From Limosilactobacillus caviae (GTDB taxonomy: Bacteria; Bacillota; Bacilli; Lactobacillales; Lactobacillaceae), in contig NZ_BMDS01000006.1 of the NCBI RefSeq assembly GCF_014635905.1, forward strand, positions 1 to 64,000: DNA of 64,000 nt, in the 5' to 3' direction. The translations under genes and the position numbers were made by a program. How positions within the stretch are numbered: position 1 is the first letter of the stretch; each line of letters begins with the position of its first letter. Below, piece by piece: positions 20,627 to 51,934 of the stretch. The notes below the pieces were generated by a model. That model was not told the origin of the DNA. It saw only the letters and a program-made list of their open reading frames with translations, and did no database searches.

Positions 20627-22054
20627 TTAGGCTTGGTCTGTTGCTAAATTGGCGACGGTAGATTGTTTAGCCGGTACTTTAACGAGCATCCCAGCTACAA
20701 CACAGATGATCGTAACTAAGAATGGGAAGAAAGCCCATGGAATAAAGTTAAGCGGATTAATTTGCAAGGTGCTGGCAATAAATACGCCGGATACACTCCA
20801 AGGAACAATTGCATTAACCGCGGCTCCCGCATCGTTTAGGATTCGGGTTAAGTATGCTCGTTTTAAGCCAAGTTTTTCAAATGCTGGCAAGAATGATTGA
20901 CCGGGAAGAATAATTGCTAAGTAGTGCTCCCCGACCATTAAGTTAACACCCACACAAGTAACAGCGGTGGCCATTGTAAGTCGGCCCGGGGTTTTTACAA
21001 TACCAGCAAGGTGGTCAATAATTGCTTTGATAATATTAAACTTGATTAAAAGACCGCCTAGAGCCAAAGCAAAGATAATAAGGGCAAGTGAAGTTAGCAT
21101 ACTTGCAATTCCACCCTTAGAAAGTAAAGTATCAATTGTCTTATCACCGGTATGAGAGACGTAACCAGTCATGATGGTATTAGTAATGGTTGAGATGCTT
21201 GTACTTGGTGCATGAATCCATCCTAACAAAGCAGCAAACAATGATCCGAGACCAAGAGAGGGAATAGCGGGTACCTGTAAGAATGCAAGAATTATTAAGA
21301 GCAAAACCGGTAAAAGTGCCCACCCGGAAATCCAGAAACCATTTGCAAGACCATTCATCATTTTATGAACCGCACTTAGACTAACATTCTTAGAGTTGAG
21401 TCCGAGGAAGGTGTATAGGATAATACAGATCGCCCATGCAGGAATATCAGTGACTAGAAGTGATTTAATATGTTTGTAAATACTGATTTCACCAACGCTG
21501 GCGGCAAGATTAGTTGTTCCAGAAAGCGGCGAAATATTTGATCCACAAAATGCACCAGAAACAATAACACCAGCAGTAAGACCAGGATTAATTTTTAATG
21601 TTGCGCCAATTCCAATAAAGGCAATTCCCATTGTTGAAACAGTGGTAAATGAACTTCCACATGCAACACCGACAAGGGTACAAACGATAAAGACGGTTGG
21701 TAGAAAGAATTTAACAGAAATAATTTCAAATCCAAAGTACATGATAGTGGGGATGGTTCCTGAAAAAATCCACGTAGCGATGAGAACCCCGATAGAGAGG
21801 AAAATAATTAAAGGATCAACGCCAGCCCGAAGACCGCTTCGCATACCGTCCATTACTGTATCCCACTTAAATCCACGAATCCGACCGTAAACTGCAAGCA
21901 GGACAAAAGAAATGAATAGTGGAGCTTGCGGTTCTTGGTGCTTAAAAATAATCAAGTATCCGAGAATACATAGGATGCCGGCAAGAATAAGTAAACTTTC
22001 GCCGAACCCAAAAGTAGGTTCAGATTGATTTAATGACTTTTTAGTAGCTTTCAT
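20627..22054 (-). CDS. NhaC-family Na+-coupled transporter, likely tyrosine transporter
   Basis: This 475-residue protein has about twelve membrane helices and NhaC-family signatures (GVACGSSFTTVSTMG, SGAFCGSNISPLSGTTNLAAS, NDAGAAVNAIVPWSVSG). AAGGAG precedes the ATG. NhaC members include Na+/H+ antiporters, malate/lactate antiporters and amino-acid carriers. The leader upstream encodes a short peptide with four Tyr codons and an attenuator (22080-22334), which points to tyrosine as the regulated, and probably transported, substrate. The family is seen; the substrate is inferred from regulation only. Confidence 0.85.
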   Translation of the reverse strand: MKATKKSLNQSEPTFGFGESLLILAGILCILGYLIIFKHQEPQAPLFISFVLLAVYGRIRGFKWDTVMDGMRSGLRAGVDPLIIFLSIGVLIATWIFSGTIPTIMYFGFEIISVKFFLPTVFIVCTLVGVACGSSFTTVSTMGIAFIGIGATLKINPGLTAGVIVSGAFCGSNISPLSGTTNLAASVGEISIYKHIKSLLVTDIPAWAICIILYTFLGLNSKNVSLSAVHKMMNGLANGFWISGWALLPVLLLIILAFLQVPAIPSLGLGSLFAALLGWIHAPSTSISTITNTIMTGYVSHTGDKTIDTLLSKGGIASMLTSLALIIFALALGGLLIKFNIIKAIIDHLAGIVKTPGRLTMATAVTCVGVNLMVGEHYLAIILPGQSFLPAFEKLGLKRAYLTRILNDAGAAVNAIVPWSVSGVFIASTLQINPLNFIPWAFFPFLVTIICVVAGMLVKVPAKQSTVANLATDQA

Positions 22055-22079
22055 TATTTGATTCTCCTTAAATTCTAAT

Positions 22080-22125
22080 AAAAAACACTAACTAGATCAG
22101 CGGTGATTGCACAATCCAGTTAGTG
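22080..22125 (-). terminator. Attenuator terminator of the NhaC leader
   Basis: On the - strand CACTAACTGGAT (22125-22114) pairs with ATCTAGTTAGTG (22097-22086), 12 pairs with one G-T, followed by six T (22085-22080). It ends 26 bases before the transporter ATG. Its 5' arm overlaps the antiterminator partner, so the two structures exclude each other. Confidence 0.88.
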
Positions 22126-22187
22126 GGCTTGGTAGTATAAATAATGGAAGAACGCTACCCTTTACTAGATTGTGTACCTAGCAAAGG
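22110..22187 (-). promoter_or_regulatory. Antiterminator and anti-antiterminator helices
   Basis: CACAATCTAGT (RNA of 22174-22164) can pair with ACTGGATTGTG (22120-22110) over 11 positions with one G-T, which blocks the terminator. The same segment also lies in a competing hairpin, CCTTTGCTAG/CTAGTAAAGG (22187-22178 with 22168-22159). This is the layout of a transcription attenuator with three alternative folds. Confidence 0.8.
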
Positions 22188-22188
22188 A

Positions 22189-22297
22189 CTCATTAAAACA
22201 ACCCTGCTTAGGTACGAACACCGTTGTCCGTACCTAAAGTACAGACACTTATGCGCGATAAGCATAGTTGTTATAGTACTTAGCTGTATTTAATGAG
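22189..22297 (-). ncRNA. Structured leader RNA of the NhaC transporter gene
   Basis: The leader folds into a closed multi-helix element. P1 is CTCATTAAA/TTTAATGAG (22297-22289 with 22197-22189). P2 is AAGTAC/GTACTT (22281-22276 with 22242-22237), containing CTTAT/ATAAG (22262-22258 with 22252-22248). P3 is TTAGGTACG/CGTACCTAA (22237-22229 with 22216-22208). The 3' arm of P3 can instead pair with TGCTAGGTAC (22183-22174), linking it to the antiterminator region. It does not match the lysine, SAM, TPP, purine, Mg or T-box consensus that I can recall. Confidence 0.7.
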
Positions 22298-22308
22298 CAG
22301 GTAGTCAT
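22249..22308 (-). CDS. Leader peptide rich in tyrosine codons
   Basis: The ATG at 22308 has AAAGGA nine bases upstream. The 19-residue peptide reads MTTCSLNTAKYYNNYAYRA and stops at 22249-22251. Four of its last nine residues are Tyr (codons at 22278-22276, 22275-22273, 22266-22264, 22260-22258). The codons AAG-TAC form the 5' arm of helix P2 and the first codons overlap P1. A ribosome stalled for lack of charged tRNA-Tyr would therefore alter the leader fold. This is the classical plan of an amino-acid operon leader peptide. Confidence 0.75.
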   Translation of the reverse strand: MTTCSLNTAKYYNNYAYRA

Positions 22309-22340
22309 AATTGTCGTTCCTTTCATTTGATGTTGTGTTT

Positions 22341-22369
22341 ATTAAAACATTCTCATTTTAGTTTGTCAA
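22341..22369 (-). promoter_or_regulatory. Promoter of the NhaC transcript
   Basis: On the - strand TTGACA (22369-22364), a 17-base spacer and TTTAAT (22346-22341) form a strong promoter. The start would be near 22334, about 26 bases before the leader-peptide ATG and 280 bases before the transporter ATG. Confidence 0.8.
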
Positions 22370-22387
22370 TCTCTAATTTAAATAAAA

Positions 22388-51649: not shown

Positions 51650-51934
51650 AAAAAAGCACTCATCCCTTAATTAAAGGACGAGTGCTCCGCGTTACCACCT
51701 TTATTCGCCAAATCCTCACAGATTCAGCCTCAGTAGGTTACTCTAATAAAATAATTAGAATTACCTAGCACTAGTAACGTGTGCTAACCCGTTATCGACT
51801 AACAATCATCGATACCATTCCAAGCCCATCTTCAGTAGTTAGCCTTACTTCTTTTCACCACCCAGAAGCTCTCTTGAAAGATTCGCTACTTACTCTGCTT
51901 TTCGATATGTTTTAACGTTCAATTAATTATTATG
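51650..51934 (-). ncRNA. T-box leader, probably methionine-specific
   Basis: On the - strand the leader contains the T-box sequence AAAGGTGGTAACGCGG (51702-51687), an AGTAAGTAGC-type AGTA box, the stem-I text GAGAGC...GGGTGGTGAAAAGAAG and a terminator AGCACTCGTCC...GGGATGAGTGCTTTTTT (51686-51650). Two ATG triplets are candidate specifier codons (51818-51816 in GGAATGGTA, and 51829-51827 in GAAGATGGG). Both read Met, as expected for a methionine transporter operon. Uncharged tRNA-Met would stabilise the antiterminator. Confidence 0.9.

Follow-up and report, generated by a model that had tools for sequence, protein, structure and literature searches.

The window (the whole 64,000-nt stretch of Limosilactobacillus caviae DNA analysed here) encodes an NhaC-family transporter on its minus strand, preceded by a leader in which a short open reading frame with its own ribosome site lies between a sigma-70-type promoter and an intrinsic terminator (Table 1). 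The frame, whose translation is predicted, specifies a peptide with Tyr at four of its last nine codons, and orthologous peptides are likewise preceded by purine-rich ribosome sites; a sequence-only reading of this DNA had described the peptide, its good ribosome site, and its Tyr codons, all of which were confirmed. The T6 tract of the terminator is separated from nhaC by 25 nt. The segment from 22330 to 22075 has a folding energy of -84.6 kcal/mol, as compared to a mean of -55.1 for shuffled sequences (z = -6.5; 0 of 200 shuffles equally low). A search of Rfam 15 with the window leader (E up to 10) returned only a plant microRNA on the opposite strand (E = 7.9). In leader numbering (p), the window coordinate equals 22323 - p.

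Table 1. Features of nhaC and its leader in the window; percentages refer to paired cells in the alignment of nhaC leaders.
Feature	Coordinates	Strand	Parts	Basis
NhaC-family transporter, 475 aa	20627..22054	-		PF03553, 159 bits; TIGR00931, 355 bits, below its cut-off of 370
Sigma-70-type promoter, TTGACA-17-TTTAAT	22341..22369	-	-35 TTGACA 22369-22364; spacer 17 nt; -10 TTTAAT 22346-22341	sequence
Leader-peptide ribosome site AAAGGA	22318..22323	-	9 nt 5′ of ATG	sequence
Leader peptide MTTCSLNTAKYYNNYAYRA, 19 codons	22249..22308	-	ATG 22308 to TAA 22249; Tyr codons 22278-22276, 22275-22273, 22266-22264, 22260-22258	sequence, orthologue conservation
P1, peptide codons with distal arm	22189..22297	-	22297-22284 with 22201-22189	84%; 9 of 13 pairs changed on both sides
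Hairpin A (2a:2b), just past stop codon, readthrough state	22225..22247	-	22246-22239 with 22233-22226	97%, 32 leaders
Hairpin B (2b:3), rival of A, termination state	22208..22237	-	22237-22225 with 22220-22208	89%; 6 of 13 pairs changed on both sides
Pairing F (3:4), readthrough state	22174..22215	-	22215-22205 with 22183-22174	96%
Hairpin C (4:5), termination state	22159..22187	-	22187-22178 with 22168-22159	95%; 5 of 10 pairs changed on both sides
Antiterminator D (5:6), 11 positions	22110..22174	-	22174-22164 with 22120-22110	conserved pairing; 88% across all eleven positions, 94% across nine
Terminator E (6:7), 12 pairs and T6	22080..22125	-	22125-22114 with 22097-22086; T6 22085-22080	94%; 7 of 12 pairs changed on both sides

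The pairings downstream of the stop codon form a chain from A through B, F, C, and D to E, in which each pairing excludes the next, with F as the link that would pass a signal onward. Because F also crosses P1, P1 opposes the readthrough state; the exclusions and this crossing together define two coherent states, one with A, F, and D (readthrough) and one with B, C, and E along with P1 (termination). Covariation was scored on an alignment (A1) of 32 distinct nhaC leaders. In the termination state, 90.2% of cells are paired and 27 of 48 pairs are changed on both sides, a count matched by none of 500 shuffles; for the readthrough state the values are 93.8% of cells and 9 of 29 pairs, matched by one of 500 shuffles. 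For control structures slid along the alignment, pairing dropped to 22–46%. Antiterminator and terminator are thus mutually exclusive and both conserved. These two elements had been proposed by the sequence-only reading and were found as claimed, while the third hairpin that it had described as competing with the antiterminator is hairpin C. It had also placed the AAG-TAC codons of the peptide in one arm of a leader helix; this helix (22280-22276 with 22242-22238) is present in the window, but with 78% of cells paired across the 32 leaders it ranks last in conservation among the eight helices counted, and a conserved role for it was therefore rejected as weak. The conserved pairings A, B, and F and the long-range helix P1 are additional to those that had been described before.

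A protein search of 50 genomes of the genus gave matches in 48, many of them paralogues, and 33 loci with at least 77% identity (L001, L003–L031, and L053–L055) were taken as the orthologue set. The leader is present upstream of nhaC in 32 of these 33 orthologues, comprising 31 extracted leaders and one (L009) for which the peptide was read from the sequence and the RNA was matched by the model. One leader is strongly diverged (L054; 20 bits, E = 0.011), two loci (L009 and L014) contain additional DNA between the terminator and nhaC, and one locus (L007) has lost the entire leader, with nothing between nhaC and the preceding gene. Two further loci, from L. portuensis (L038) and L. viscerum (L045), were added to the leader set; the remaining 19 of 21 named loci coincide with loci already in the orthologue search. 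YY is found in all 33 extracted leader peptides, which contain two to five Tyr each; the tandem pair opens with TAT in 29, TAC in three, and TTC in one, and synonymous TAT/TAC exchanges occur at the tandem Tyr codons among nhaC leaders. The comparison of orthologous leaders, which had been put forward earlier as a check on the sequence-only reading, therefore shows that the peptide, the tandem Tyr codons, and both folds are kept, with compensatory changes.

The effect of ribosome position was modeled by folding each leader as far as the 5′ arm of the terminator, with the ribosome footprint kept unpaired, under an equilibrium model. D exceeded 0.5 in one of 32 nhaC leaders with no ribosome, in 15 with the A site on the first tandem Tyr codon (Tyr-1), in 11 with the A site on the second (Tyr-2), and again in one with the ribosome on the stop codon. 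Since one leader (L016) presented D >0.5 in every ribosome state, 14 leaders respond at Tyr-1; 17 of the 32 remain <0.5 even with the ribosome there, and in the window's own leader a stalled ribosome shifted D weakly, from 0.01 to 0.24. When the ribosome was moved along the codons with three different footprints, mean D (maximum 0.53) peaked at Tyr-1 or one codon earlier, depending on the footprint, and was down to 0.03 or 0.04 close to the stop codon; a lower shoulder extended up to six codons 5′ of Tyr-1, which is the edge of the scan. Among 50 non-nhaC members of the family described below, the shift was modest (D >0.5 in 13 with no ribosome, 20 with a stalled ribosome, and 11 with the ribosome at the stop codon). 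Equilibrium folding supports, and does not prove, an effect of ribosome position on the fold.

A covariance model (R1) built from 25 nhaC leaders and spanning only the region from just past the stop codon to hairpin C, with no peptide codon, matched 38 of the 50 genus genomes and identified 14 places besides nhaC. The window genome itself has a second match (G000:C1:316968-317057, E = 3e-12), with the leader peptide MTSLSLTTKKYYFGFAYFM, at the head of an operon in the order MFS transporter, aroE, aroD, chorismate mutase, aroC, prephenate-dehydratase-like gene, and aroA; here the mutase and aroA were recognised by tblastn only, and the dehydratase-like gene, which has no NCBIfam match, was named by reading. 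A wider model with 45 members (R2), likewise lacking peptide codons, matched 69 of 301 genomes of the family Lactobacillaceae, in 17 of 40 genera. Across the order, R2 matched 10 of 295 genomes; three of these matches come from other families, and among the three, L169 (in G486, E = 0.0097) lacks a peptide and was taken to be false. Because the search filters were strict, members may have been missed, and the E-values are rough. A tighter cut, together with a reduced source list, removed three opposite-strand matches. An Rfam search of 12 other family loci (E up to 1) gave only mir-5879 (E = 0.0016) and sRNA_2410 (E = 0.72), both far below the gathering score. The window leader is therefore a single representative of a device spread through the family and not an isolated case, a point beyond the reach of the sequence-only reading.

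Sixty non-nhaC loci were read, comprising all 14 R1 places, 48 of 62 non-nhaC matches of R2 (five shared with R1), and the three loci outside the family; 14 weaker R2 matches (E = 0.0016 to 0.0094; of 71 matches) were left out. The first downstream gene encodes an MFS transporter at 41 of these loci, AroE at eight, chorismate mutase at two, AroA at one, and a dehydratase-like protein, with tyrA behind, at one, so that at 53 of 60 the first gene is either the MFS gene of aro operons or an aro gene. At 28 of the 41 loci that begin with MFS, the MFS gene is followed by, or has at its end, an aro gene or a mutase; the other 13 show no aro gene in the available DNA, which mostly ends there, and for one of them (L121) a longer stretch (L132) also lacks an aro gene. 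An enzyme of the aromatic pathway was seen at 40 of the 60 loci. The other seven loci include two with APC permeases, two from outside the family that precede amino acid ABC transporters, two with Cys-codon leaders (one before a DAACS transporter and one at a contig end), and the false match.

The chain of pairings is also retained across these loci. After exclusion of four of 65 members without a terminator found by the script, the cognate pairing was at least as stable as the median non-cognate pairing in most of the 50 non-nhaC members (48 for D, 50 for F, 49 for C, and 47 each for B and A). In a family alignment of 66 rows (A5, which keeps one opposite-strand row of L162), the A and F state is paired in 87.0% of cells, with 114 cells changed on both sides as compared to 46 in shuffled alignments; two of five covariation measures are not clear of the shuffles, which were as high in 25 of 500 cases for the number of pairs with changes on both sides and in 426 of 500 for pair types. 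For pairing F, both sides are changed in 20 to 22 of the 66 rows at three pairs. The peptide, its codons, both fold states, the terminators, and the gene context are conserved.

The peptide codons track the downstream gene. Of the 60 non-nhaC matches, 57 have an aromatic-rich frame that stops where expected, and two have Cys-rich frames (MTKLNFKIQLACCCTCYML and MTNEKNLLKAAYCTCTR); because frames were picked by a script favoring aromatic content and a good ribosome site, or by eye from candidates, this count leans towards an aromatic-rich result. The last ten residues of the 33 nhaC peptides contain 128 Tyr, 3 Phe, and no Trp among 330 positions, those of 53 aro-group peptides contain 179 Tyr, 115 Phe, and 4 Trp among 530, and those of the Cys-rich pair contain 6 Cys among 20; some of the peptides counted are near-copies from related species. 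The putative regulatory codons are thus conserved and match the amino acid of the gene, which for nhaC is a predicted one. This pattern bears on the way in which the ribosome would be stopped. In TnaC and SpeFL, a ligand and the nascent peptide in the exit tunnel stall the ribosome together, and free tyrosine or another ligand might act likewise here; the peptide is short and conserved and its end repeatedly reads (Y/F)(Y/F)xxFAYF, which would suit such arrest, but the non-aromatic residues vary widely, and Tyr, Phe, Trp, and even Cys interchange according to the gene. Mainly the aromatic positions are kept while their identities swap, rather than a fixed sequence as expected for a TnaC-type arrest peptide; codon reading suits these gene-wise swaps better, and arrest by the nascent peptide appears unlikely. 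A general sensor of translation speed, of the type found in erm and other antibiotic leaders, would share the RNA logic, and stalls at several codons do free the antiterminator in folding; its aromatic codons would be incidental, though, while here the preponderance of Tyr in the nhaC peptide ends, the fit between codon identity and gene, and the aro-operon context of most other loci make it very unlikely that such a sensor is at work.

The relatives of this transporter also bear on the signal. When 53 NhaC proteins were placed in a tree, one branch (100/97) set apart the 32 attenuator rows together with the leaderless L007, and another (100/98) the five T-box rows, the two groups being sisters. 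These five sister-clade loci (L056–L059 and, from another genus, L070) match the Rfam T-box with E = 1e-15 to 2e-9; their scores of 55 to 79 bits fall short of the gathering score (93), and at that threshold no T-box was called for any of them. A specifier rule (GAA-N-XXX) that reads AUG in the T-box found at 51671-51914 of the window gives UAC (Tyr) for all five. In addition, a NhaC paralogue with 64% identity, in genome G007, is encoded in a cluster with the order tyrosine decarboxylase, TyrP tyrosine/tyramine antiporter, nhaC, and tyrS, whose proteins each score above their NCBIfam cut-offs. That the transporter moves tyrosine, as the sequence-only reading had predicted, is supported by the UAC T-boxes and by this tyrosine cluster, and we infer tyrosine as its likely substrate; NhaC transporters were earlier predicted to carry tyrosine on the basis of T-boxes (PMC2494555).

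A Tyr-rich frame is also present 3′ of the T-box at the five sister-clade loci, with tandem Tyr in four of five (shuffled chance of 0.008 to 0.07 each, from a crude shuffle and lineages that are not independent). Nucleotide homology with the nhaC leader peptides is not claimed for these frames, whose best local alignments scored lower than the top one among 60 shuffles; the frames hint at double control of these loci by T-box and Tyr codons.

T-boxes sense tRNA directly and are not known to use a peptide. A remnant or variant T-box binding tRNA-Tyr without translation would be in keeping with the UAC T-boxes of the sister clade, but the window leader gave zero matches (E up to 10) to the T-box model RF00230, which is marked by a Stem I with specifier and a GGGUGG-ACC antiterminator core, and it lacks that core (GGGTGG-ACC in DNA), no T-box was detected in L001, L006, or L024 (E up to 0.1) in a search that found eight T-boxes, and the ribosome site and reading frame are conserved, all of which renders this explanation extremely unlikely. 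No supporting point was found for an unregulated leader with a chance reading frame and a leaky terminator, which has practically no chance given that both fold states covary, that the device recurs in 17 of 40 sampled genera, and that related genes follow at the loci read.

Taken together, the conserved peptide, the tandem Tyr codons, and the covariation of both fold states favor ribosome-mediated attenuation, as the sequence-only reading had proposed: with a probability of about 0.87, the leader would be a transcription attenuator that reads the charging of tRNA-Tyr and controls a tyrosine-transporting NhaC, as one copy of a Lactobacillaceae-wide family whose signal is set by codons. The switch is probably worked by a stalled ribosome; translation of the peptide, stalling, and the direction of the response are inferred. 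When Tyr is scarce, the ribosome would stall on the tandem Tyr codons, holding P1 open and leaving the segment past the stop codon free; A, F, and D would then form, the terminator would be blocked, and nhaC would be transcribed. When Tyr is plentiful, a ribosome reaching the stop codon would cover the 5′ arm of A, so that transcription terminates through formation of B, C, and E; in the absence of translation, P1, B, C, and E would likewise cause termination. On this common pairing chain the peptide codons would set the signal, Tyr for nhaC and Phe, Tyr, and Trp for the aro operons.

The origin of the nhaC attenuator was addressed with a phylogeny of the core RNA (93 columns and 64 rows, with L123 omitted beforehand), in which 11 nhaC leaders group with eight of nine Limosilactobacillus aro leaders (96/88); L113 falls outside this group, and two APC and two ABC leaders fall inside it. 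With few columns and little resolution, the tree leaves it undecided whether the nhaC leaders form a single clade (AU p = 0.39). Three of four Limosilactobacillus species with the T-box retain an aro copy (L109, L113, and L123). The grouping of nhaC with aro leaders in the tree suggests that an aro leader may have been copied to nhaC. Somewhat better than even, in our view, are the chances of a broader scenario, in which one Lactobacillaceae scaffold was copied from gene to gene and retargeted by its peptide codons alone (aro operons with Phe, Tyr, and Trp codons, nhaC with Tyr, an APC permease with a Phe-rich set, and a DAACS transporter with Cys), with the scaffold also at two loci in other Lactobacillales families; in Limosilactobacillus, an aro copy would have displaced the Tyr T-box of nhaC, while sister lineages retain the T-box plus a second, Tyr-rich reading frame behind it. 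The gene-tracking codons of this aromatic leader device would offer a ready route to predicting transporter substrates, the nhaC leaders would represent a natural case of one sensor class replacing another at the same gene, and the RNA would be modular, with a specificity that may be addressed by recoding a few codons.

Enterobacterial attenuators of His, Trp, and Phe operons combine a leader peptide carrying cognate codons with alternative hairpins and an intrinsic terminator. The leader described here shares these three elements but differs in that seven segments past the stop codon give six successive pairings (A, B, F, C, D, and E) in addition to P1, in that Tyr would be sensed before nhaC, and in the phylum of the host. 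With the next four systems, the comparison is one of published descriptions rather than of the RNA. In Corynebacterium glutamicum, an actinobacterium, the aroR leader (Phe-Tyr-Phe) before aroF likewise places aromatic codons before a gene of the aromatic pathway, and ribosome stalling there is described as responding to limitation of Phe, not Tyr (PMC11802643). Histidine leader-peptide attenuators have been described in Firmicutes, in some cases where relatives use T-boxes (PMC2965389, PMC9413887), with histidine as the signal and in other lineages. Leader attenuation of branched-chain amino acid genes, reported in Staphylococcus aureus and Listeria and proposed by bioinformatics for Lactococcus and Streptococcus (PMC6123439), is similarly ribosome-mediated and found in Bacilli, including Lactobacillales, but involves branched-chain codons and genes. 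Tandem Cys codons, as in the Cys-rich leaders, also characterise the uORFC-8-2 motif, for which ribosome-mediated attenuation was proposed before cysS in Rhodobacterales, which are Alphaproteobacteria (PMC8632094). T-boxes have been described as regulators of many amino acid transporters in lactobacilli, and the Tyr T-box of nhaC shares both gene family and signal with the present leader (PMC2494555); the window leader itself gave no T-box match. Among the papers listed by full-text searches of the open-access literature, judged by title, abstract, or excerpt, none was recognised as reporting an aromatic leader-peptide attenuator for Lactobacillales. Given the known histidine, branched-chain, Cys, and aromatic leaders, the principle is an established one; what seems to be new is the family itself, the tyrosine signal at nhaC, the retargeting of one scaffold by its codons, and the longer chain of pairings.

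Five sister-clade loci (L056, L057, L058, L059, and L070) carry a T-box with a UAC specifier upstream of nhaC, the gene for the NhaC-family transporter with tyrosine as its predicted substrate, in place of the predicted ribosome-mediated leader-peptide attenuator. In each of them, a short frame with a good ribosome binding site lies between the T-box terminator and nhaC, and in four of the five this frame contains tandem Tyr codons (e.g., MDYYYQYFFSDD). The frames of L058 and L059 extend beyond the nhaC start, while the end of the L057 frame coincides with it; these post-T-box frames may represent a second tyrosine sensor, acting at the level of translation. The genome from which the window is taken also encodes a second nhaC paralogue (41% identity), which is preceded by a T-box (E 3.5e-10) with a UAU (Tyr) specifier. 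Among the Limosilactobacillus nhaC orthologues, L007 has lost the promoter, leader, and terminator, with the preceding gene directly adjoining nhaC; L009 and L014 have additional DNA between the terminator and nhaC, which is long in L009.

Coordinates of the additional features
Feature	Locus	Position	Strand	Remark
T-box, AUG specifier	window	51671-51914	minus	assigned to metQNI by the sequence-only reading
Second attenuator copy, Tyr/Phe peptide	L104/L124	G000:C1:316600-322600		heads aro operon; window's own genome (G000)
Second nhaC paralogue	L066	G000:C1:328418-330340		window's own genome
MFS gene with apparent chorismate mutase-like domain	L128	2179-3633		aro operon

The attenuator is also found at aromatic-pathway (aro) genes, and one genome (G250; loci L156 and L158) carries it twice, ahead of aroA and ahead of the aro-operon MFS gene. 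As read from its sequence, the aro-operon MFS gene of L128 appears to continue into a chorismate mutase-like domain; tblastn gave no match at that place. The same continuation seems to be present in L137, L139, L144, L146, L157, L159, L160, and L163, where tblastn placed the match within the MFS frame or at its end.

Outside the Lactobacillaceae, two copies were found in other families of the Lactobacillales (L168 and L170), with leader peptides ending in FYYYAFYR and NYYYAFYR, respectively. The L170 gene encodes an ABC transporter for amino acids whose binding and permease domains are fused in a single protein, and the L168 gene looks similar at its start. Two loci of one genus, g26 (L141 and L166), share the RNA scaffold of the attenuator, with Cys-rich peptides; in L141 the scaffold sits ahead of a gene encoding a transporter of the DAACS type, a family that has cystine carriers among its members. 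The NCBIfam model that this transporter matches best is GltP, with a score far below the cut-off.
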